Assembly: GCA_013141415.1 (NCBI GenBank)
Contig: JABFQY010000005.1
Coordinates: forward strand, 124,001 to 188,000
Source: Kiritimatiellaceae bacterium
GTDB lineage: Bacteria; Verrucomicrobiota; Kiritimatiellia; Kiritimatiellales; Tichowtungiaceae
Reading direction: 5' to 3'
Length of the DNA stretch: 64,000 nt
Part shown: positions 4,465 through 23,983 of the stretch, in pieces
Layout of the letters: each line of letters opens with the position of its first letter
Numbering within the stretch: the stretch's first letter is position 1
Program-made: the position numbers and the translations under genes
The notes under the pieces: model-generated
Told to the model about the DNA's origin: nothing
The model's database searches: none
Seen by the model: the letters and a program-made list of their open reading frames with translations, nothing else

Positions 4465-5496
4465 ATGAGTACGTCTTTTGCCAATGTACCGCTTCAATGG
4501 GTCGGGCCGGTCAAAATCGCCGGGCCGGAAATTGATATCGAAACCGAACTGCCGCTGGCGACCTACGAAACGCCGCTGTTCGCTTCCGTCAACCGCGGCG
4601 CGCGCGTCGCTACCGCCTCCGGCGGAATCAAAGCGGTCGTCATCGATGAACGGATGAGCCGTTCGGTTCTATTCGAAGCGCCGGACGCCATCGTCGCTTT
4701 CCAATGTCTGGAAAAAATTAAAGCAGAATTTCCGAAGTTTGGAACCGTCGTCGCCACGACCAGCCGCTTTGCCAAACTGATCGACATGCATTCGCAGATC
4801 GCGGGCAACCTGCTTTTTATCCGCTTCGAGTTCACCACTGGCGACGCCTCCGGCCATAACATGGTCACCTTCGCCAGCGAAGCGCTGATGACCCGTATTC
4901 TTGAACTTTGCCCGGCGCTGAAATACGAATCGATCTCCGGCAACTTCTGCTCCGACAAAAAAGCCACCGGCGTCAATGGCATTCTCGGGCGCGGCAAATA
5001 TGTCGTTGCCGAACTGACCGTTCCCGGAAAACTGGTTCAGAAATATCTGAAAAGCACGCCGGAAAAAATCGTCCAGCTCAACATCCGAAAAAACCTGATC
5101 GGCACCATGCTGGCGGGCGGACTGCGCTCCGCCAACGCGCACTACGCCAACATGCTGCTGGCCTTCTATCTCGCCACCGGCCAGGATGCCGCCAACATCA
5201 TCGAAGGTTCGCAGGGCGTCACGCAGGCGGAAGTCCGCAACGGCGATCTCTGGTTTTCCGTCACCATTCCCAACCTGATCGTCGGCACGGTCGGCAACGG
5301 CAAAGGACTTCCGTTCGTCGAAGAAGTGATGCAGAAACTCGGTTGCCGCGAAGAACGCGAACCGGGCGCCAACGCCCGCCGCCTTGCCCTCATCTGCTCC
5401 GCCGCCGTTCTCTGCGGCGAACTTTCCCTCATGGCCGCGCTCACCAATCCCGGCGAACTCATGGCCGCTCACCGCAAGCTGGAAAGAAAGGGTTGA
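4465..5496 (+). CDS. Hydroxymethylglutaryl-CoA reductase, class I type
   Basis: Reduces HMG-CoA to mevalonate, the committed step of the mevalonate route to isoprenoids. The 343 residues give the soluble catalytic domain without the eukaryotic membrane anchor. Motifs are of class I rather than class II (MvaA): TYETPLF with the catalytic Glu near 35, TGDASGHNMV (126-134), the catalytic Lys in CSDKKAT (162-168) and Asp in ATGQDAAN (237-244). IPNLIVGTVGNGKGLP and a C-terminal catalytic-type His in AAHRKLER follow. The gene opens the isoprenoid operon. No good ribosome site precedes the ATG at 4465, so the start could differ slightly. Confidence 0.88.
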   Translation: MSTSFANVPLQWVGPVKIAGPEIDIETELPLATYETPLFASVNRGARVATASGGIKAVVIDERMSRSVLFEAPDAIVAFQCLEKIKAEFPKFGTVVATTSRFAKLIDMHSQIAGNLLFIRFEFTTGDASGHNMVTFASEALMTRILELCPALKYESISGNFCSDKKATGVNGILGRGKYVVAELTVPGKLVQKYLKSTPEKIVQLNIRKNLIGTMLAGGLRSANAHYANMLLAFYLATGQDAANIIEGSQGVTQAEVRNGDLWFSVTIPNLIVGTVGNGKGLPFVEEVMQKLGCREEREPGANARRLALICSAAVLCGELSLMAALTNPGELMAAHRKLERKG

Positions 5497-5557
5497 AAAC
5501 ACGTCAAGTTCAAGATGTGCAGAAGATATAACCCCAGTTAGTTTATAAAGAGGCAAT

Positions 5558-6139
5558 ATGGTCAAATTTTTAAGATGGCGGTTGTGGTGTGTATTGTTAG
5601 GTGTATTTCTCGCCGCAGATATAGGTTGTGGTGAGGAAAATACTCAGGCCTTTGGCATCAGCTGGTCTCAAGTCCATGTTCCAGAGGGATATATTGTGTT
5701 GGTAAAAAATACTTCTGATGTCGGAGCCATCAAATTCATCACCAGCACGAATAACAACATACGGTTCTTATTTTATGAGAAAGAATCCAGTGCAGAATAT
5801 GAGTGGTGCTCTTTTGACAAAAGAAAAACCGTTGCGGATAGAGGGCGGAAATGTTTGGCCGAGTCTGGATTGCGATTTATTGCCAAGCTAAGCTTTTCAT
5901 TAGGAGAAGAGCATGTTGATTTTAAGTCGTTTAAATTTCGCTGGAATTATCCGTCAGTTGTTTGGTTTGGAACCACGGCAAGAGATAGTGGAATAAAATT
6001 TGCGCCAACTGCCTGGACGCAGTTTGAGCAAGTGGATTTAAATGACAAGAGACTAAAATGGTTCGAGTACGATGTGCTAAGGACAAATAATCTGGTGTTG
6101 TCGTTGGATCGACTTCCGGGAGGAAGCGGAAGTTTATAG
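5558..6139 (+). CDS. Hypothetical exported protein
   Basis: A 193-residue protein that I do not recognise. The N-terminus has basic residues, a hydrophobic stretch of about 15 residues and then IGCGEE, so it is probably exported, possibly as a lipoprotein with a poor lipobox. The rest is mixed polar and aromatic with no repeats or recognisable motif. Its codon use is clearly more AT-rich than that of the neighbouring mevalonate genes. It sits between HMG-CoA reductase and isomerase, where a pathway gene would be expected, so it is probably a late insertion. An AAGAGG ribosome site precedes the ATG. Confidence 0.6.
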   Translation: MVKFLRWRLWCVLLGVFLAADIGCGEENTQAFGISWSQVHVPEGYIVLVKNTSDVGAIKFITSTNNNIRFLFYEKESSAEYEWCSFDKRKTVADRGRKCLAESGLRFIAKLSFSLGEEHVDFKSFKFRWNYPSVVWFGTTARDSGIKFAPTAWTQFEQVDLNDKRLKWFEYDVLRTNNLVLSLDRLPGGSGSL

Positions 6140-6178: not shown

Positions 6179-6234
6179 ATGAGCGAACTTGAGAAACGGA
6201 AAGTGGAGCACGTTAAGATCGTCGCGCAGAAGGA
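6179..6234 (+). repeat. 56-bp duplicate of the fni 5' end, left copy
   Basis: These 56 bases are identical to 7290-7345, the first 56 bases of the isomerase gene. The two copies bracket the YhcG-type nuclease gene. The left copy still reads as an open frame of 22 codons (6179-6247) starting at the old fni ATG and ending in a TGA that overlaps the nuclease ATG. It therefore acts as a leader cistron for the inserted gene. Confidence 0.9.
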
Positions 6235-6243
6235 TCCTATTTC

Positions 6244-7293
6244 ATGAATAACGAGCTGCACCTAAGCCAGAGCCTTTTTTCCGAAATCAGATCGCTGATC
6301 GAGCAGGGTCGCCAGCAGGTGGCGGTGACGGTTAACGCCGCGATGACGCTGTTGTACTGGCAGGTCGGCAAGCGGCTTAATGACGAGGTGCTGAAGGATC
6401 GGCGGGCGGAATACGGACAACATGTGGTTGCCGCCTTGTCGCAGCAATTGACGGCGGAGTACGGTAAAGGCTGGAGCAAGCGGCATTTACATCATTGTCT
6501 CCGCTTTGCGGAGACTTTTCCCGATCCTCAAATTGTGAACGCACTGCGTACACAATTGAGCTGGACCCATATTCGAACCATCCTTCCGATTGACGATGAG
6601 CTGAAGCGGACGTTTTATATTGAGATGTGCAGGTTTGAGAAATGGAGCACACGGACGCTTGAGGAGCGCATTCAATCCATGCTTTTCGAGCGTACGGCGA
6701 TCAGTAAAAAGCCGGAAGAGACCATTCAGCGTGAACTTCAGCAACTGGGTGCCACGGGTCAGATTACCCCCGACCTAGTGTTTCGCGACCCGTATTTCTT
6801 GGATTTCCTCGATTTGAAGGATAGCTATTCGGAGAAAGACCTTGAGTCGGCAATTACCGCCGAGTTGCAACGGTTTATCACCGAGCTGGGCAGCGACTTT
6901 GCCTTTATGGCCCGGCAGAAGCGGATCCCGATTGACAGCCGCGACTATTACTTAGATTTGCTTTTTTATCACCGTCGGCTTAAGGCGCTTGTGGCGATTG
7001 ATTTGAAGCTTGGCGAGTTTGATGCTGCCTATAAAGGCCAGATGGAGCTGTATCTGGCGTGGCTCGAAAAACACGAATCGGTTGAGGGTGAGAATTCACC
7101 CATCGGACTGATTCTGTGTGCGGGGAAAAATCCGGAGCATGTCGAGCTGTTACAATTGCACAAGAGTAATATCAAAGTAGCCGACTACTTTACCATTCTG
7201 CCTTCCAAAGAGGTGTTGCTGGATAAATATCACAAAGCGATTGCCATTGCCCGCAACAGCATGACCTTGCGGGGCGAAAGGGAAGAATCATGA
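6244..7293 (+). CDS. YhcG-type PD-(D/E)XK nuclease domain protein (DUF1016)
   Basis: A 349-residue protein of the YhcG/DUF1016 family. The N-terminal half has the helical DUF1016_N segment (TLLYWQVGKRLNDEVL, then YGKGWSKRHLHHCLRFAE). The C-terminal half has the nuclease-like core, with YYLDLLFYHRRLKALVAIDL at about residues 236-255 and then KLGEF, supplying the D...D-x-K metal-site residues. Members are often mobile and occur near restriction systems; their function is poorly defined. Here the gene sits alone inside the mevalonate operon between 56-bp direct repeats. Its ATG overlaps the stop of the 22-codon leader (ATGA at 6244), and its TGA overlaps the fni ATG (ATGA at 7290), so it is translationally coupled on both sides. 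Confidence 0.88.
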   Translation: MNNELHLSQSLFSEIRSLIEQGRQQVAVTVNAAMTLLYWQVGKRLNDEVLKDRRAEYGQHVVAALSQQLTAEYGKGWSKRHLHHCLRFAETFPDPQIVNALRTQLSWTHIRTILPIDDELKRTFYIEMCRFEKWSTRTLEERIQSMLFERTAISKKPEETIQRELQQLGATGQITPDLVFRDPYFLDFLDLKDSYSEKDLESAITAELQRFITELGSDFAFMARQKRIPIDSRDYYLDLLFYHRRLKALVAIDLKLGEFDAAYKGQMELYLAWLEKHESVEGENSPIGLILCAGKNPEHVELLQLHKSNIKVADYFTILPSKEVLLDKYHKAIAIARNSMTLRGEREES

Positions 7294-7345
7294 GCGAACT
7301 TGAGAAACGGAAAGTGGAGCACGTTAAGATCGTCGCGCAGAAGGA
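7290..7345 (+). repeat. 56-bp duplicate of the fni 5' end, right copy
   Basis: Right copy of the direct repeat flanking the YhcG-type gene. It is identical to 6179-6234 and diverges from base 57, where the left copy runs into the nuclease gene leader. Here it forms the true N-terminus of the isomerase. Confidence 0.9.
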
Positions 7346-8300
7346 CGAGATGGATCGCCGCAAGTTTTACTTCGACGAGATCCGTCTGACGCACCGCGCA
7401 CTGCCGGAGATTGATCTGAAGGCGATTGATCCGTCGGTCGAGTTCATGGGCAAGAAACTTTCGTTCCCGTTGCTGATTTCGTCGATGACCGGCGGCGGCG
7501 ATAAGCTGTTCCGGAAGATCAATACCAACCTCGCCGCCGCCGCCGAAGCCGAAGGCGTGGCGATGGGCGTCGGTTCCCAGCGTATCTTTTTCACCGAGCC
7601 GACGGCCAAATCCAGTTTTGATCTTCGCCACGTCGCGCCGACGACGCTGCTGTTTTCCAATCTCGGTGCGGTACAGCTCAATGAAGACATGACACTCCAG
7701 CACGCCCGCGCCGTGGTGCAGATTCTAAAGGCCGACGCGCTTTGTTTGCATTTGAATCCGTTGCAGGAAGCGGTTCAGCCGGGCGGCGACACCAATTTCT
7801 CCAATCTTCAGAAAAAGATCGGCGAGATTGTTCGGGGACTCGAAGTGCCGGTGATCGTCAAAGAAGTCGGCGCGGGAATTTCCGCCGCCGATGCCGAACT
7901 GCTGATTGATGCCGGTGTGAAATATATCGACGTCGCCGGTTCGGGTGGAACGTCATGGAGCCGCGTCGAAGGTGAACGCAGTAACGATCCGTCGCTCGGC
8001 GAACTTTTTCAGGACTGGGGCATTCCAACTCCGATGGCTCTTAAGCAGCTCGCCCCGCTTAATGTCACATTGATTGCGTCCGGCGGCATCCGCTCCGGCG
8101 TGGATATGGCGAAGGCGGTCATTCTCGGCGCGTCGCTCTGCGGACTGGCCCGCCCGTTCCTGAATCCGGCCATGGAGTCGGCAGAAGCCGTCCGTGTCGT
8201 GATTCAAAAACTGAAGCGCGAGTTTGTCACCGCGATGTTTCTGCTCGGCGCGGATCGTGTCGAAAAAATCCAAGGCCATGACGCGTTGATTGTAAAGTAG
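7290..8300 (+). CDS. fni: Isopentenyl-diphosphate delta-isomerase, type 2
   Basis: FMN- and NADPH-dependent isomerase that interconverts IPP and DMAPP. The 336 residues carry the type 2 signatures in order: [53 protein letters not shown] and [10 protein letters not shown] (flavin phosphate site). The start at 7290 overlaps the nuclease stop (ATGA). The first 56 bases also occur at 6179, showing that the gene was once read directly from the upstream leader. The TAG stop lies in the foot of a GTAG hairpin repeat (8297). The gene is intact and should be functional. Confidence 0.95.
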
Positions 8301-8370
8301 GACAGGCTTCCAGCCTGTCCAGGAGATGTTGAATCTAAAAGGGAATAGACAGGCTGGAAGCCTGTCCTAC
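8297..8370. repeat. GTAG-foot inverted hairpin pair (BIME-like)
   Basis: Two hairpin units face each other: one starts GTAGGACAGGCT with stem GACAGGCT/AGCCTGTC (8297-8320), and its reverse copy ends AGCCTGTCCTAC (8346-8370). The linker contains AGGAG. The first unit supplies the fni stop codon, and the second ends nine bases before the HMG-CoA synthase ATG. A related pair with the same foot occurs at 62514. The GTAG tetranucleotide next to an imperfect stem is the mark of REP elements moved by RAYT transposases. Confidence 0.75.
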
Positions 8371-8379
8371 GTTAAAACA

Positions 8380-14218: not shown

Positions 14219-17200
14219 ATGATTCTTATGGGAAACAAGCTAAAAATAGCGGGTGTCAGCGCGGTTCTGATGTGCGGCTTGAATGGCATGGCGGCTGATC
14301 CAGCGCGGCCTGCTGAATTTGTGATTGGGCAGACGGTTGTGCGTACAAACACGGTTGGGTTTGGCGCAGAAATAAGCCATCCGCAAACGATTAATAACTG
14401 GACGGATAACCCCGGAATGGAACCGCTTGTTGCGCGGGAATATTGGGAGATCAGCGGCGGCGGTACCAACGCAATCGGCAGTTATGCGGATTGCAACACG
14501 CGCAAGTCCGATTCTTTGTGTTCCGGTTTTTATGACGGAGCCCATTATCGTCTGTACCGCGAAAATTATACTTTAGGCCGGATTGAAAAAATTGCGGAGG
14601 GGACTGTTCCTGCGGGAGGGTTTCTTGCAGACGGATATATGACGGTCGGGAGCGCCGGCGAAAGCATAAAGACGTATGCGCCTAATACAGATGTCGCAGA
14701 TAATTATCTGATTCAAAATGGAGAGACGTGGTATTACGCCGTAAAGGCGCACGACATAAACGGGAACTGGTCCGATTTTTCGGCGGCCGTTGCCGGGGTG
14801 ACCCCGCAGGCGGGAATTACGAACGGACCGCGCATTGCGACGCAAACGGTAGCGGATCCGAAAGTTGGAACCGTGTATGCCGAGTCCAAGCCGTTTGAAA
14901 CTTTATCAGCATTGGGCGGAACCCTTCCGCTGAGCTGGACGCTTGTTTCCGGTGTGTTGCCGGATGGGATGAGCTTGAGTAGCGCCGGGAAAATTTTTGG
15001 AACCTGTTCGACGACTAATCCGGTTTCGTTTGTTGTGCGGGTGACGGATGGCGAAAGCCGGACACACGAAAGAACGTTCAGAATGTTTTGGCCGGATCCT
15101 GCCGGTGACGGGGCCGCGCCAGCCGCGCCGACGAATGTGGTGACGGAGGCCCGTGACGGATTTGTTTACATCCGCTGGGATACTCCGGCAGAGAGCGATA
15201 TTACAGACTATCAGATTTACCGCTCGCGTGTTCCGGTTACATCGCAAACGGAACGGATTTATTTAGATGCTTCCGGAGCCGTCGTTCCGGTGTCGGGCGA
15301 TTTGCTGTTTGTAGAAAAGGAGTGGCAGGATGCTCCGGCACCTGAGTTGAGCAGTCTCCGGATTGTTCAATATCAGGGAACAACAAAGTGGAGTCCTTAC
15401 GGCAATAAAGTGAGCATGGTGTTTACGAATCATCCCGGCACACTTCCGGCACAGTTCACAAACGAATATCCGGGGGCAGGATGCTTGAAAGTGACGACTT
15501 CCACCAACGAGCTCTTCGGGATTTGGCAATATAAGACGGCGAGTACAAACGGCGGCTCATGGAGTACCGCTCAGTTTACACCGGGCCAGACGTACCGGAT
15601 GGAATGCTGGGTTTACGGAGAGGGATTAACCAATGCTTCGCTCCGGTTCAGCTATGGCAGCTACACCGATCAAGCAGTCACCGGCATTGTCAACGGGGCG
15701 TGGACGAAGCTTTCGGTTAACTTTACAGCGACCAACTGGGTGACCAAAGCCGGATCAGTTTTTGGACCGTACTTCCGTTTTCAAGGGCCGGGGTCTGTGT
15801 ACCTTGATAATGTGGTGGTCTATAACGTGAACGATCCGGCGGGTCCGTGCCATTATTCCCAGAGCGTTTTGGATTTGTGGAAGGACTATGTCGGTCAGGC
15901 CGCCGCCACAAACAAAGGGGTGCTACGGGTGCGCTATAACACCGAATCCTTCGACCACATTATGAATCCGGCGGTGATGAGCGAGCGCGGCTGGGATAAT
16001 ACGAAAGGCGCCTCCAAGGGAGACGCGTTGCACATCCACGATGCGTTGGCGATCGCGCTGGCAACCGGAACGAACGCAGTTACACGGTCAGTTCCGTGGA
16101 TTATCGCCAGTCTGGAATGGAGCGAAGCTGACTATGTACGTCTGGCGGAATATCTCGCCGGCCCGGCGGGAACGCCGTACGGTGATCTGCGCATCGCACA
16201 ACGCGGCGGCGTTACGACGCCGTGGATCGATGAGTTCAGAAAAATCATTATCGAGATGGGTAACGAGCCGTGGAATACCGGTTATTTCTTTGGATTCCGG
16301 GGCGGGTTCACAGGAGAGTCCGGTCGTACCTATGGCCGTTTCTGTAATTATATCTGGGATTACGTCTGGACGAATTCTCCGTACATGACGGATAAGCTTA
16401 AGCCGACGATCGGAACGTGGACAACGTCACTCGAAACCGACGGATTTTCAGCCAACGCCCGTCGTGAATGCCCGCGTGCCAAAAATATGGCCATGACGAT
16501 GTATCTGGGCGGCTGGGAAAAGGGGCAGGACGGGCAGATTGGCGGGACAACGTGGAGCGATGACGGCGTACAGCAATGGCCGATTTTTGTCGACCGTTCC
16601 GGAATCGGGGTAATCAGCAATGCTGTTGCGTTTCAGACTCTGATGGCCGCCGAAGGGCTTCCGTTTGAGTGGATGGTTTATGAAGCCGGGCCGAGTTATC
16701 TGATGAACGGACTGAACAATGTGACGTTGACCGCAGAAGAACAGGAAACATCCAGACGCTACGGGCGTACGCTGGCCGCCGGCATCGGGACGCTCGACTA
16801 TTTTCTGTACGGCGCGTACCGGAATCTTCATGAAACATCCTTTTTCTCGTTTACTCAGGACGCCGGGCTTTGGGGATCGCATACCTACATATGGAACGGC
16901 TACCGCCCGCATCCAGCCTTTCTCGGCCTGACGCTGATTAACAACTACGTCAAAAGTCCGTCCTCCATGCTGCTGACCGCGCCGCTTAACGTGCCGTCGT
17001 TTGATCTTTCGTATTTACAGGACGGAGTGACTCAGACGAAGCCCGGCATGAGCCTGGCGTCGGTCTATGCGTTCCGTGACGGCAATCGCTACGCCGTACT
17101 TCTGCTGAATAAAAAGGTGGATGGAGTGCATAGCGGCTATGACTTCGGCGACGGAACCACTCCGGCGACAGTTCATCTGCCTTTCAGCAATCCAAGTTCG

Positions 17201-18682
17201 ATCACCCTGTATAAAATTTCCGGCGACCCGCGTCTGACCAATGTGGATCAGGACAACTTCCAAATCGTGACGCAGTCGGTCAGTACGGCGGCGTTCTCGC
17301 AGGACTTCACGGTGAATATGAATACCGGCGGAACGACCAACGGGTTGCCGGTGGGCGGCATTTTTCTTTATGTGTTTGAAGGCGGCACAGCGGATACGCT
17401 GCCAGCTAATCCCCAAGTGACTGTTACCCGTGCTTCGACCCAGAACGATCCGCAGGATGGAAGCGTTGCAAACGAAGTTCGTTTCTCTGTGATTTTCGAC
17501 CGTCCGGTGACTGGATTTAACAGCACGAACGATGTGATCATCGGCGGCACAGCGTCTCCGCAGACGGTCGGTATCAGCGAAATCGCTTCCAGTCTGGGAA
17601 CTCTCTACGAGGTGGTTGTCAGCGGGATGCTTGCGCCGGGAACTGTAACCCTCAGTGTTCCGGCAGGCGCGGCGCAGGCGCAGGATACCGGAAACGGAAA
17701 TGAGGGTTCCGCTTCCTGTAGTGCGGCGATTAGTTTTTACCGCGGGCTGACTTTGCTGGGTTGGGAATTTATCAACTTGCCCAATTCGACGAATCAGAAT
17801 CCCAATGCGACGGTGCGGCACTCGTTCATGTTGCTGTCCTCGCTAACAAATGGTCCCGGATGCAAAACGAGCGCCAACAACTATTATAATGGCGACGGCT
17901 ACGCGATCGGAAATGTCACATCAACCAATCTGGATTTGGGCGATTATCTGACCTGGACGGTGACTCCGACGAATGGCTATGCGATGAAACTGATTTCGAT
18001 TCGGTTAGGGGCTTTCGGTTATATCGTGAGTAATGCTTATAATGCCCAGCTTCGCTGGAGCACGAACGGGTTTGCCAGCTACAATACAGTCAGTCTGGCG
18101 CCGACAAACCAGCTGGTCGGCGCAGGTTACCATGAAGGAACCGGCACGGAACTTACAGGGGATCTTAAAGGATTTACGGAGTTGCAGAACATCAGTCGTG
18201 CCGTTGAATTCCGCTATTATATTTGGAACGCCTCTGTTGCCGCCGGGATCGGCCGGCTGGGCGCGAATGCAGACACAGTGGATTTAGAGATCGTCGGCTT
18301 CGTGGCCCCGGAAGGGCAGCTTCCGGTCGATCTCGACAATGACGGCCTGCCGGACTGGTTTGAAAATCAGTACTATGGCGGCTTTACCAACGCCAATCCG
18401 TCCGCAATCACCTCCAATGGCTTTAATACCGTATATGAAGCCTATCTGGTCGGGATCAACCCCACCGATCCGGACGCCCTGTTTAAACTTTCCGGGCGCC
18501 GGAATGAACTTGGGTGGAATGCGGTTTCCGGCCGAGTTTATACTATTTACTGGACCAGCAACCTGCTCAGCGGATTCCAGCTGTTGGGAAGCAACCTGAC
18601 CGCATCAGGAATTTTTAACGACATCGTCCACAGCAACTGGCCTGCCGGATTCTATAAAATTGATGTGCATCTAGCACCGTGA
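14219..18682 (+). CDS. Giant secreted multidomain protein with glycoside hydrolase-like core, copy 1
   Basis: A 1487-residue exported protein with a signal peptide (cleavage likely after NGMA). In order it has a putative Ig-like domain (about 225-280, SLSSAGKIFGTCSTT) and a fibronectin III-like domain (about 300-345). A jelly-roll carbohydrate-binding-like module follows (about 395-545, ending DNVVVYNV). The central TIM-barrel-like region has IEMGNEPWN near residue 682 and VYEAGPSYL near 821, candidates for acid/base and nucleophile glutamates of a clan A hydrolase. After this come a beta-sandwich (about 1065-1165), a calcium-binding DLDNDGLPDWFE motif (about 1370) and a C-terminal 70-residue domain. 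The substrate is unknown; a plant or algal polysaccharide is plausible. Closely paralogous to the gene at 19535. Confidence 0.72.
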   Translation: MILMGNKLKIAGVSAVLMCGLNGMAADPARPAEFVIGQTVVRTNTVGFGAEISHPQTINNWTDNPGMEPLVAREYWEISGGGTNAIGSYADCNTRKSDSLCSGFYDGAHYRLYRENYTLGRIEKIAEGTVPAGGFLADGYMTVGSAGESIKTYAPNTDVADNYLIQNGETWYYAVKAHDINGNWSDFSAAVAGVTPQAGITNGPRIATQTVADPKVGTVYAESKPFETLSALGGTLPLSWTLVSGVLPDGMSLSSAGKIFGTCSTTNPVSFVVRVTDGESRTHERTFRMFWPDPAGDGAAPAAPTNVVTEARDGFVYIRWDTPAESDITDYQIYRSRVPVTSQTERIYLDASGAVVPVSGDLLFVEKEWQDAPAPELSSLRIVQYQGTTKWSPYGNKVSMVFTNHPGTLPAQFTNEYPGAGCLKVTTSTNELFGIWQYKTASTNGGSWSTAQFTPGQTYRMECWVYGEGLTNASLRFSYGSYTDQAVTGIVNGAWTKLSVNFTATNWVTKAGSVFGPYFRFQGPGSVYLDNVVVYNVNDPAGPCHYSQSVLDLWKDYVGQAAATNKGVLRVRYNTESFDHIMNPAVMSERGWDNTKGASKGDALHIHDALAIALATGTNAVTRSVPWIIASLEWSEADYVRLAEYLAGPAGTPYGDLRIAQRGGVTTPWIDEFRKIIIEMGNEPWNTGYFFGFRGGFTGESGRTYGRFCNYIWDYVWTNSPYMTDKLKPTIGTWTTSLETDGFSANARRECPRAKNMAMTMYLGGWEKGQDGQIGGTTWSDDGVQQWPIFVDRSGIGVISNAVAFQTLMAAEGLPFEWMVYEAGPSYLMNGLNNVTLTAEEQETSRRYGRTLAAGIGTLDYFLYGAYRNLHETSFFSFTQDAGLWGSHTYIWNGYRPHPAFLGLTLINNYVKSPSSMLLTAPLNVPSFDLSYLQDGVTQTKPGMSLASVYAFRDGNRYAVLLLNKKVDGVHSGYDFGDGTTPATVHLPFSNPSSITLYKISGDPRLTNVDQDNFQIVTQSVSTAAFSQDFTVNMNTGGTTNGLPVGGIFLYVFEGGTADTLPANPQVTVTRASTQNDPQDGSVANEVRFSVIFDRPVTGFNSTNDVIIGGTASPQTVGISEIASSLGTLYEVVVSGMLAPGTVTLSVPAGAAQAQDTGNGNEGSASCSAAISFYRGLTLLGWEFINLPNSTNQNPNATVRHSFMLLSSLTNGPGCKTSANNYYNGDGYAIGNVTSTNLDLGDYLTWTVTPTNGYAMKLISIRLGAFGYIVSNAYNAQLRWSTNGFASYNTVSLAPTNQLVGAGYHEGTGTELTGDLKGFTELQNISRAVEFRYYIWNASVAAGIGRLGANADTVDLEIVGFVAPEGQLPVDLDNDGLPDWFENQYYGGFTNANPSAITSNGFNTVYEAYLVGINPTDPDALFKLSGRRNELGWNAVSGRVYTIYWTSNLLSGFQLLGSNLTASGIFNDIVHSNWPAGFYKIDVHLAP
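16868..16980 (+). repeat. Near-identical tract shared with copy 2, at 22163-22275
   Basis: A tract of 113 bases with a single mismatch (16900 against 22195), including 80 bases without any difference. The surrounding regions of the two genes differ at many third codon positions. This suggests recent gene conversion. Confidence 0.7.
18476..18583 (+). repeat. Near-identical tract shared with copy 2, at 23777-23884
   Basis: A tract of 108 bases with one difference (18535 against 23836) encoding the start of the shared C-terminal domain. It is another candidate gene-conversion tract, or a constrained domain. Confidence 0.65.
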
Positions 18683-19385: not shown

Positions 19386-19534
19386 GGGAATCCCGAGTTT
19401 CGGCGTGCGGCAGATTTGCGCATGTGAATGCGCAGTTCATCACTTTCTGGAATATGGTTTTCGTGTTACATTAGCGGTGGAGAGGTGCCGGACAGAATTC
19501 AGGTCGAGAGCCCTCGAGTTGTAAGGTGAAGATA

Positions 19535-22500
19535 ATGCGCGGAATCAGTTTATATTCAATCGTCTTGGCTGGCGGGCTGGTCGGGTTTTCCGATGAGATA
19601 ACCCGACCTGCTGATTTTGTGATTGGTCAGACCGTTGTGCGTACGAATACGGTTGGGTTTGGGGCGGAGTTCAGTCATCCGCAACGGATTAACAACTGGA
19701 CGGATAATCCCGGTTTTGAGCCGCTGACTGCGAGGGGATACTGGGAGCTCAGCAGCGGTGGCAGCGATGCAACCGGAAATTATGCGGACTGCAAAACCAG
19801 CGACTTCGACTCCCTGAGTTCCGGTTTTTATGATGGGGGGACCTATCGTCTGTATCGCGAAAACCATGTGCTGGGCCGGATTGAAAAAATTGCAGAAGGG
19901 ACGATTCCTGCGGGCGGCTATATTGCATCGAAATATATGCAGGTGGGTAGCGGGGGGACTGCTGTAAGTGCCTATGCACCCAACACAGAAACCACGGATG
20001 ACTACCTGATTCAAAATGGAGAGACGTGGTATTACGCCGTCAAAGCACGCAACGTCAGCGGGAAGTGGTCGGAGTTTTCCGCCCCGATCGGCGGAGTGAC
20101 TCCTTTGTCATCGATTACGAACGGGCCGCGCATCAAAACCTCTTCCGTGGCGAACCCGGCGGTGGGTACGGTGTACTTGATAACCAAGCCGTTTGCGACC
20201 CTGTCGGCGGTTGGCGGCACGCCCCCGCTGAGCTGGACGGTTCCTTCCGGCGCTCTGCCGTCCGGTATGAGTTTGAGCAGCGACGGAAAGGTTTATGGAA
20301 CCTGTTCGACAACCGATGCGGTCTCTTTTGTTGCGCGGGTGACAGACAATACAAGCCTGACACACCAGAGAACCTTTAGAATGTTCTGGCCTGATCCGCC
20401 CTCCAGTTCGACAAACGCACCGGCTGCTCCGACGAATGTGACGGTGGCGGCGAATAACGGCTTTGTTCATATCAGTTGGGATGCGCCGTCGGCGGGCGAT
20501 ATTACAGACTATCAGGTTTTCCGTTCCCGCGTTCCGGCTGCATCACAAATGGAACGGATTTATCTGGGCACAACCGGTGCAGTTCCCATGTCGAACGACA
20601 TGTTGTTTGTGGATAAAGAGTGGCTGGAGGCTCCGCCGAAAGAAGCCAGCAGTCTGCGGACTGTGCAGTATCTTGGGACGGCATCAACGTGGAATCTGAA
20701 AGGAAGTGGTGCCGTGCAGCAGATTGTGCCGCATCCCGGTACGATTCCCGCGCAATTTAAAGATTCCGGCGAAGGGTGTTTGAAGCTTTCCACCAGCACA
20801 AATGAGGTGTTCGGGATATTCATTTATAAAGTTGCCGGAGTGTCGAATGATTTCTGGAGTGTAAATCAGTTTACTCCGGGGCAGACCTACCGGATGGAAT
20901 GCTGGGTGTACGGGGAAGGCATGACCAACAACACAGTGCAGTTTAAATATAACAATTACACGGATCAAACGGTGACCGGTGTTGTCAACGGAGTCTGGAC
21001 AAAGCTTTCGGCTGATTTCACTGTGACGAACTGGGTTTATGCTACTGGATCGGCTTTCGGGCCGAACTTCTGGTTTAAAGGGCCGGGCACAGTGTATGTC
21101 GATAATGCAGTAGTCTATAACGTGAACGATCCGGCCGGCCCGTGCCATTATTCCCAGAGCGTTTTGGATTTGTGGAAAAACTACGTCGGTTCGGCCAGTG
21201 CCACGAATAAAGGGGTGCTACGGGTGCGCTACAACACCCAATCCTTCGACCACATTATGAACCCGGCGGTGATGTCTCAAAGAGGATGGGGGAATACTGG
21301 GGGTGCCGATAAAACAGATCCCTTGCACATCCACGACGCATTGGCCATAGCGCTGGCAACCGGAACGAACGCAACCGCGCGAACAGTTCCATGGATCATC
21401 GCCAGTTTGGAATGGACAGAAACCGATTATGCCAAGCTGGTGGAATACCTCGCCGGCCCGTCGGGAACGCCTTACGGCGATTTGCGAATTTCACAGCGTG
21501 GCGGCGTTACGACGCCGTGGACCACTGAGTTCCGTAAAATTGTCATCGAAATGGGTAACGAGCCTTGGAACACCGGTTATTTCTTCGGTTTCCGCGGAGG
21601 ATTTTCCGGTGAATCCGGCCGTACCTACGGACGCTTCTGCAATTACATCTGGGACTATGTTTGGACGAATTCTCCATACATGACAGATAAGATTCGTCCG
21701 GTAGTTGTAGCTTGGGCTGGCGCAATGGCGACAAACCAATTCACGGCGGAAGCCCGCCGCGCATGTCCGCGAGCAAAAGACGTTTCAGTGACGATGTATC
21801 TGGGCGGATGGGAAAAAGGGCAGGAGGGACAGATTGGCGGAACCACCTGGAGCGATGATGGCGTACAGCAGTGGCCGGTTTTCCTCGACCGTTCCGGATC
21901 TTCTTCAATCAGTAATTATGTTTCATTACAGGCGGCGATGGCGGCGGAGGGACGTCCGTTCGATTGGCTGGTTTACGAAGGCGGGCCGAGTTATCTGATG
22001 AACGGACTGAATAATGTTACCCTGACAGCAGAGGAACAGGAAATCTCCAGACGCTACGGGCGCACACTGGCCGCCGGCATCGGGACGCTCGACTACTTTT
22101 TATACGGCGCTTACCGGAATCTTCAGGAGACGTCTTTTTTCTGCTTCAATCAGGATGCCGGACTTTGGGGATCGCATACCTACATATGGAACGGTTACCG
22201 CCCGCATCCAGCCTTTCTCGGCCTGACGCTGATTAACAACTACGTCAAAAGTCCGTCCTCCATGCTGCTGACCGCTCCGCTGAGCGTGCCGTCGTTTGAT
22301 CTCTCCTATTTACAGGACGGAGAGACGCTGGTGAAGCCGGACATGAGCCTGGCATCGGTCTATGCATTCCGAAACGGCAGTCGCTATGCGGTGCTGCTGA
22401 TCAATAAGAAAGTGGACGGGGTGCACAGCGGGTACGATTTTGGTGACGGAACCACTCCGGCGACAGTTCATCTGCCGTTCAGCAATCCAAGTTCGATCAC

Positions 22501-23983
22501 CCTGTATAAAATTTCCGGCGACCCGCGTCTGACCAATGTGGATCAAGAAAATTTTCAGATCGTCACGCAGTCGGTCAGCACAGCGGCGTTCTCGAAGGAC
22601 TTCACGGTGAATGCCAGTACCGGCGGAACGACCAATGGACTGCCGGTGGGCGGGGTTTTTCTCTATGTATTTGAAGGCGGCACAGCGGATACGCTGCCAG
22701 CTAATCCGCAGGTAACAGTTGTCCGGGCATCAACCCAGACCGATCCTCAGGACGGAAGCGTTGCGAATGAAGTCCGTTTCTCCGTGCTTTTCGACCGTCC
22801 GGTGACTGGATTTAACAGTACGAACGATGTGATTGTTGGCGGCACCGCGTCTCCGCAGACGGTCAGTATCAACGAGATTTCTTCCAGTCTGGGAACTCTT
22901 TACGAAGTGGTTGTCAGCGGAATGCTTTCGCCGGGAACTGTGACGCTTAGCGTTCCGTCCGGCGCGGCGCAGGCGCAGGATACCGGAAACGGAAATGATG
23001 TTTCCGCTTCCTGTAGCGCGGCGATCAATTTTTATCATGGTCTCACTTTGCTTGGCTGGGAGTTCATCAATCGGCTCGATCTATCGACCAATCTTCCATA
23101 TCAAAACCCTAATGCCACGGTACGGCATCCATTCATACTGATGTCCTCACTGACGAATGGTCCCGGATGCAAAACAAGCGTCAATAGCTATTACAACGAC
23201 GATGGCTATGCGGTCGTAAACATCAATTCGACAAATTTGGATCTGGGCGATTATCTGACCTGGACGGTAGCTCCGACGAATGGACATGCAATGAGACTGA
23301 TGTCTATCCGGCTTGGAGCCTTCGGGCCGTCAGCAAGTCCCTACAAAATCCAGCTCCGCTGGAGTACAAACGGATTTGCCAGCTACAATACGGTTAACCT
23401 GACTCCGACAAACCAGTTGATCGGCTCGACAACTGGCACGGAGCTTCAGAGCAGTCTTATGGGATTCGCCGGACTGCAGGACATCAGGAATGCAGTCGAA
23501 TTCCGTTATTACATTTGGTCGGACACCAGTGCCGGTACCGCTGGAGGAATCGGTCGGCTGGGTGCGAATGCTGACACTCTGGATTTGGAAATCAAAGGGA
23601 TCGTGGCGGAAGAGGGAATGCTGCCGGTGGACATGGATGGCGACGGCCTGCCGGACTGGTTTGAAAATCAGTATTACGGAAGCTTTGTTGGCGCCGACCC
23701 GAATGCGATGGCGGCCAACGGCTTTAACACCGTGTACGAGGCTTATCTCGCCGGACTCAATCCCACCGATCCGTCAGCCCTGTTTAAACTTTCCGGGCGC
23801 CGGAATGAACTTGGGTGGAATGCGGTTTCCGGCCGGGTTTATACTATTTACTGGACCAGCAACCTGCTCAGCGGATTCCAGCTGCTGGAAAGCAACCTGC
23901 CGGCATCAGGAATTTTCAATGACATCGGCCACAGCAACTGGTCGGCCGGATTTTATAAGATTGATGTGCATCTGGCAGAATAA
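19535..23983 (+). CDS. Giant secreted multidomain protein with glycoside hydrolase-like core, copy 2
   Basis: A 1482-residue paralogue of the gene at 14219 with the same domain order: signal peptide, Ig-like and fibronectin III-like domains and carbohydrate-binding-like module. The hydrolase-like core (IEMGNEPWN and VYEGGPSYL, so the second candidate Glu is kept), beta-sandwich, calcium motif DMDGDGLPDWFE and C-terminal domain follow. I use the ATG at 19535 because AAGGTG lies six bases upstream; GTG at 19526 is the longer option. Most residues match copy 1, with differences in surface stretches, and some DNA tracts are nearly identical. The two may have divided substrates. A beta-glycosidase or related exo-enzyme role is inferred only. 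Confidence 0.72.
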   Translation: MRGISLYSIVLAGGLVGFSDEITRPADFVIGQTVVRTNTVGFGAEFSHPQRINNWTDNPGFEPLTARGYWELSSGGSDATGNYADCKTSDFDSLSSGFYDGGTYRLYRENHVLGRIEKIAEGTIPAGGYIASKYMQVGSGGTAVSAYAPNTETTDDYLIQNGETWYYAVKARNVSGKWSEFSAPIGGVTPLSSITNGPRIKTSSVANPAVGTVYLITKPFATLSAVGGTPPLSWTVPSGALPSGMSLSSDGKVYGTCSTTDAVSFVARVTDNTSLTHQRTFRMFWPDPPSSSTNAPAAPTNVTVAANNGFVHISWDAPSAGDITDYQVFRSRVPAASQMERIYLGTTGAVPMSNDMLFVDKEWLEAPPKEASSLRTVQYLGTASTWNLKGSGAVQQIVPHPGTIPAQFKDSGEGCLKLSTSTNEVFGIFIYKVAGVSNDFWSVNQFTPGQTYRMECWVYGEGMTNNTVQFKYNNYTDQTVTGVVNGVWTKLSADFTVTNWVYATGSAFGPNFWFKGPGTVYVDNAVVYNVNDPAGPCHYSQSVLDLWKNYVGSASATNKGVLRVRYNTQSFDHIMNPAVMSQRGWGNTGGADKTDPLHIHDALAIALATGTNATARTVPWIIASLEWTETDYAKLVEYLAGPSGTPYGDLRISQRGGVTTPWTTEFRKIVIEMGNEPWNTGYFFGFRGGFSGESGRTYGRFCNYIWDYVWTNSPYMTDKIRPVVVAWAGAMATNQFTAEARRACPRAKDVSVTMYLGGWEKGQEGQIGGTTWSDDGVQQWPVFLDRSGSSSISNYVSLQAAMAAEGRPFDWLVYEGGPSYLMNGLNNVTLTAEEQEISRRYGRTLAAGIGTLDYFLYGAYRNLQETSFFCFNQDAGLWGSHTYIWNGYRPHPAFLGLTLINNYVKSPSSMLLTAPLSVPSFDLSYLQDGETLVKPDMSLASVYAFRNGSRYAVLLINKKVDGVHSGYDFGDGTTPATVHLPFSNPSSITLYKISGDPRLTNVDQENFQIVTQSVSTAAFSKDFTVNASTGGTTNGLPVGGVFLYVFEGGTADTLPANPQVTVVRASTQTDPQDGSVANEVRFSVLFDRPVTGFNSTNDVIVGGTASPQTVSINEISSSLGTLYEVVVSGMLSPGTVTLSVPSGAAQAQDTGNGNDVSASCSAAINFYHGLTLLGWEFINRLDLSTNLPYQNPNATVRHPFILMSSLTNGPGCKTSVNSYYNDDGYAVVNINSTNLDLGDYLTWTVAPTNGHAMRLMSIRLGAFGPSASPYKIQLRWSTNGFASYNTVNLTPTNQLIGSTTGTELQSSLMGFAGLQDIRNAVEFRYYIWSDTSAGTAGGIGRLGANADTLDLEIKGIVAEEGMLPVDMDGDGLPDWFENQYYGSFVGADPNAMAANGFNTVYEAYLAGLNPTDPSALFKLSGRRNELGWNAVSGRVYTIYWTSNLLSGFQLLESNLPASGIFNDIGHSNWSAGFYKIDVHLAE

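Follow-up and report, generated by a model that had tools for sequence, protein, structure and literature searches.

Insertion with long target duplication is known for restriction–modification genes, around which long and variable stretches of host sequence are doubled (PMC3874152, PMC1643837, PMC3031569; originally Nobusato et al. 2000 and Furuta et al. 2010). Such insertions are recognized by genome comparison as transposase-free blocks flanked on both sides by host DNA in direct repeat, long (around 100 bp) and variable in length, and they concern mainly restriction–modification genes. Homology-facilitated illegitimate recombination (PMC3240628), which has been put forward for Vibrio T6SS immunity arrays (PMC5361080), combines a homologous anchor with an illegitimate end and can in this way add foreign genes beside a conserved gene and build serial arrays. 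Integrase-borne islands also duplicate the end of a host gene and leave that gene intact. An earlier note on the DNA analyzed here knew of no description of its style of insertion; that the style is undescribed is not supported, given the long, variable target duplications of restriction–modification genes.

The locus described here lies in a 64,000-nucleotide stretch (the window) of a Kiritimatiellaceae bacterium and shares the architecture of a foreign block between host direct repeats. It differs from the restriction–modification cases in that the passenger is a lone YhcG nuclease without a methyltransferase; the scar, the flanking repeat of host sequence, extends in our survey to RhuM, DUF4143 and probably Fic genes, and in several of the surveyed cases the two copies resemble distinct alleles more than a target that was duplicated. 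Unlike the known examples of homology-facilitated illegitimate recombination, the cases here, which are known from sequence, show solitary genes enclosed by a short duplication of the end of a housekeeping gene. Unlike integrase-borne islands, the block in the window is a single gene, with no integrase and no common attachment core.

The block spans 1,055 bp, contains one ORF only and is essentially one gene. The repeats on either side are direct, 56 bp long, 100% identical and placed at a spacing of 1111. The features of the region are as follows.

4465–5496, + strand: HMG-CoA reductase (HMGR) gene, upstream operon neighbor (PF00368, E = 1.8e-86)
5558–6139, + strand: 193-aa ORF, probably foreign and inserted earlier at this junction (GC content; absence here in relatives)
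6179–6234, + strand: left 56-bp copy of the fni 5′ end, from which a 22-codon stub now begins (identical to 7290–7345)
6179–6247, + strand: stub reading frame, overlapping the nuclease start (ORF reading)
6235–7289, + strand: inserted block, 1,055 bp (repeat bounds; outside DNA similarity confined to the gene)
6244–7293, + strand: YhcG/DUF1016 PD-(D/E)XK nuclease, 349 aa (PF06250, PF17761, PADLOC PDC-S02)
7290–7345, + strand: right copy, the native 5′ end of intact fni (continuous with fni; relatives arranged alike)
7290–8300, + strand: fni, type 2 isopentenyl-diphosphate isomerase, intact 336-aa ORF (PF01070; 71–87% DNA identity to same-genus copies)

The frame opened by the left copy runs for 22 codons to the TGA within TCATGA (6243–6247), overlapping the nuclease ATG at 6244, and the nuclease stop shares an ATGA overlap with the fni start at 7290. 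Both overlaps, and the exact extent of the block between perfect copies, are as the earlier note had read them. An AAGGA Shine–Dalgarno-like stretch lies 9 nt 5′ of the nuclease ATG and is provided by fni codons of the left copy; the nuclease tail (AAAGGGAAG) forms a purine-rich, Shine–Dalgarno-like stretch ahead of fni. The nuclease and fni each therefore have a plausible ribosome site of their own, so that translation may be coupled through the 22-codon stub but need not be. The block contains no transposase and no integrase, and its ends carry no inverted repeats; a DNA transposon or insertion sequence was rejected on the lack of a transposase and of terminal inverted repeats. An inverted-repeat element with GACAGGCTTCCAGCCTGTC is present at 8290–8377, and similar palindromes near a Fic locus (L340) and in L207 identify it as a dispersed REP-like element. 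Elsewhere in the window, tandem paralogous proteins of 1487 and 1485 aa (14219–18682 and ~19526–23983) have a HisH-like ORF between them.

The inserted gene matches DUF1016_N (PF06250, E = 5.2e-47) and YhcG_C (PF17761, E = 1.6e-46) with scores of 158 and 160 bits against cut-offs of 32.8 and 32.5, and it matches the phage-defense candidate PDC-S02 in PADLOC (E = 5.7e-130). The PD-(D/E)XK residues D238 and K255 are present and are conserved in 100% and 99%, respectively, of 215 relatives; no relative with a solved structure was found by sequence. The window copy is therefore like the family in both domains and in its catalytic residues, and it differs from the many relatives in type I restriction operons by standing alone in a mevalonate operon, with a function that is only predicted. 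The best other nuclease copy among the 13 genus mates is 39% identical, whereas a Nitrospinae copy is 82% identical, which marks the gene as foreign to this genus. Where outside relatives resemble this DNA, the resemblance falls wholly within the gene (L052, 6267–7266). Judged by these matches, the nuclease is a solitary, horizontally acquired YhcG-type gene and a candidate for phage defense. A homing endonuclease gene was considered and rejected: there is no single cognate site, and DUF1016 insertions lie in unrelated genes (fni, citF, LysR, hsdM and others).

Comparison with relatives lacking the insertion, as the earlier note had proposed, found the fni 5′ end to be single in every one of the 13 genus mates in our collection where it could be located. 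The likely ancestral state is seen in G002 and G009, where nothing separates HMGR from fni and the stop of the one overlaps the start of the other (TCATGAG). Other genus mates carry different cargo in this junction: a 123-aa ORF in G013, a 298-aa ORF resembling DUF2971 by eye in G012, and, in G008, a type I restriction system in which the HsdR C-terminus is fused to a YhcG-like nuclease domain and forms an ATGA overlap with fni (L032 4573–8025, G008:C308). The 193-aa ORF of the window has a GC content of 42%, compared with 57–58% for fni and HMGR, has no Pfam match and is missing from the HMGR–fni junction of relatives; it is probably a separate foreign insertion. Its N-terminus appears lipoprotein-like by eye. 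The variety of cargo, including the 193-aa ORF and the nuclease, marks the HMGR–fni junction as a recurrent insertion place. An exact empty allele, with the 193-aa ORF adjoining fni, was not found in the 14 genus genomes, and no HMGR–nuclease–fni allele without the stub, as expected of a donor, was found. The sequence at 5500–5526 weakly resembles the fni 5′ end of the G013 type (score 28, p = 0.002 uncorrected) and may be the decayed trace of an older stub, left when the 193-aa ORF entered, a reading that we do not claim.

The genome search suggested in the earlier note was carried out on DUF1016 loci drawn from genome contigs, viral contigs, the phylum of the window and two further phyla. 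A flanking direct repeat was counted if it scored at least 17, and palindromic repeats (the second pair of L186, and L248, L174, L241, L300 and L334) were dropped for non-palindromic counts. Long direct repeats flank 34 of 225 distinct DUF1016 genes, or 30 of 225 after this exclusion, compared with 5 of 370 neighboring ORFs (p = 2.5e-9), in counts that ignore shared descent (L093 and L094 are related, as are L278, L280 and L266). With size and flank matched (250–450 aa, at least 450 bp of flank; palindromic repeats included), the fractions are 30/191 and 3/145 (p = 1.2e-5). Mismatched flanks taken from different loci gave a repeat in 1 of 2000 pairs, and that pair came from related loci. The repeats are 18–384 bp long and 79–100% identical, and most blocks are 1,004–1,330 bp, close to one ORF, with little besides the gene. 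No common motif was seen by eye at the block ends; the targets are unrelated and share no common core across cases. A few of the repeats may be dispersed elements (L065, L126, L219, L207). Entry of a single gene with host duplication, but with no transposase or terminal inverted repeats, as first noted at fni, is therefore an architecture that recurs at many DUF1016 genes.

What is doubled is frequently the beginning of the gene downstream of the block or the tail of the one upstream, so that the host gene survives, and in the cases read the nuclease has the orientation of the host gene. Host-gene names used here (radical-SAM, MATE, citF, LysR, oxidoreductase) were assigned by eye from translations. 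Reuse of a host start codon, the style highlighted in the earlier note, does recur: citF is duplicated from its ATG over 384 bp (L171), the start of a downstream gene is doubled as a perfect 78-bp repeat in L231 and is likewise doubled and reused in L243, and in L093 and L094 the starts of hsd restriction genes (MSKKEFFPP) are doubled, with the host start codon serving as that of the nuclease ORF. Downstream gene starts are also doubled in L281 and L147. Other events, however, double 3′ ends, namely that of a LysR gene in L116 (52 bp, perfect) and those of upstream genes in L181, L185 and L250. Start-codon reuse is therefore one outcome of several, and such cases are better seen as the survivors of a general process than as the work of a mechanism dedicated to this kind of insertion. 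Two sources of empty sites were set aside: Fibrobacter relatives of L116, in which the flanks are not contiguous and hence uninformative, and E. coli yhcG as a population test, in which absences are due to IS1, IS3 or deletion and leave no informative empty site.

The scar is not special to the YhcG family. It is found at 5 of 28 RhuM genes, at 8 of 28 DUF4143 ATPase genes, which is oftener than for DUF1016, and probably at Fic genes (2 of 29, a weak result), a spread that argues for general machinery. In L306, a RhuM gene lies between duplicates of the start of an oxidoreductase-like gene, ribosome site included. A RhuM-like gene in L086 (4723–5879) is flanked by 46-bp copies of a restriction-gene start, the same one into which DUF1016 genes were inserted in L093 and L094. 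The genome of the window has a DUF4143 gene after a radical-SAM-like gene, with a repeat of 116 bp (91%), and a Fic gene after a MATE-like gene, with a repeat of 55 bp (91%). In a scan of 800 kb of this genome, the fni case was the sole clear single-gene block, paralogues and internal repeats aside.

Some scars are serial. Locus L283 (G425:C84) reads hsdM-R-DUF1016a-R-DUF1016b-R-hsdS, where R is a 195-bp segment whose three copies are 92–96% identical. The two nucleases are only ~30% identical to each other, which rules out tandem amplification as the source of the array. A RhuM gene is next in the same operon. In the genome of the window (L340/L462, G000:C3:481–483 kb), three copies of a MATE-gene 3′ end are interleaved with a Fic gene and a small ORF; the third copy differs from the second by three changes, all synonymous by eye. 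A preferred cutting site could be an alternative cause of serial insertion.

Differences between repeat copies bear on the origin of the second copy. Pooled over ~17 cases, the changed codons comprise 72 synonymous and 48 non-synonymous changes; the latter fraction (48/120) compares with ~61% expected for copies that started out identical, one of them then decaying, assuming a dN/dS of 0.1 in the live copy (p = 3.6e-6), although L250, L147 and L280 do not fit. Third codon positions hold 81 of the 141 differences. Of the MATE copies, the dead (right) one resembles other species more closely than it does its partner, and in genus mate G005 the MATE gene is immediately followed by the same Fic gene. 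Together these observations suggest that at least some second copies arrived with donor DNA, as in homology-facilitated illegitimate recombination. The copies in the window are identical; a donor origin of one of them is therefore not visible, and a true target duplication fits equally well there.

Our preferred reading, at a probability of roughly 45%, is that the nuclease was joined into the HMGR–fni junction of the mevalonate operon by the cell's own recombination, through one-sided homology and one-sided illegitimate joining rather than by a transposase. The donor fragment, on which the gene would already lie directly beside the host gene, would pair with the resident gene at that end, and its other end would join illegitimately inside the resident gene. 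The host gene end would then be present twice, with a repeat length set by the position of the illegitimate joint, and selection would keep cases with a full host gene and an expressed newcomer. At fni such an event would have placed the nuclease in the operon with AAGGA from fni codons and with overlapping stop and start codons. The main rival, which we consider unlikely though the most serious of the alternatives, is a true long duplication of the recipient's own sequence, as for restriction–modification genes. The identical copies in the window, L231 (78 bp) and L116 (52 bp) are consistent with it, and lengths of 18–384 bp resemble the variable duplications of that system (PMC3874152); it does not readily explain why differences in the diverged cases favor synonymous sites even though one copy is a dead fragment, or why the MATE copies look like different alleles. 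The same synonymous bias tells against template switching, in which a fork in fni would jump to foreign DNA, copy one gene and re-enter upstream of its exit, doubling the segment between re-entry and exit: the copies would be identical at birth. Template switching would account for variable length and for the lack of defined ends and of family specificity, and we regard it as improbable.

Spread driven by the nuclease itself, in which YhcG would cut a target and have its own gene copied or joined there as a transposase-free single-gene mobile element, appears more doubtful still. The intact PD-(D/E)XK residues, blocks that hold little but the gene, and two unlike DUF1016 genes at one site in L283 would suit it, but RhuM and DUF4143 genes, not known to encode nucleases, are scarred as often or oftener, and targets and ends share no sequence by eye. 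Integrative elements can insert at the end of a gene and rebuild it, and an integrase acting in trans would make the repeats attL and attR; given a block with no integrase, targets that vary without a common core and repeats of 18–384 bp, we rate this as very improbable. We give equally little credence to a second copy produced by local tandem duplication, unequal crossing-over or assembly error. Repeats this short can mislead short-read assemblies, but an R-gene-R unit whose gene is foreign does not amount to a tandem duplication, and the three R copies of L283 flank unlike nucleases. Assembly error, the objection that the earlier note had raised against itself, is rejected for the 56-bp copies: the window sits within a 411-kb contig of a 2.2-Mb genome in 7 contigs, and an error would not produce the diverged repeats (~91% identical) at two other sites of the same genome.

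The wider form of the preferred reading is that bacterial genomes commonly gain solitary accessory genes (YhcG, RhuM, DUF4143 ATPases, Fic) one at a time, each arrival doubling the end of a host gene and so taking over its start or restoring it. We put at even odds such a general, transposase-free single-gene route, in which the second copy would often be a donor allele and serial arrays would be readable. Movement of single genes between distant bacteria without a mobility enzyme is largely unexplained, and a scar at 10–30% of solitary YhcG, RhuM and DUF4143 genes (~7% for Fic), compared with ~1% of neighbors, offers a handle on it. The scar may be used to date insertions, to predict empty sites and, with population data, to separate donor-allele from target-duplication models. 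The fni case also shows how a newcomer can come under operon expression while the operon stays unbroken.
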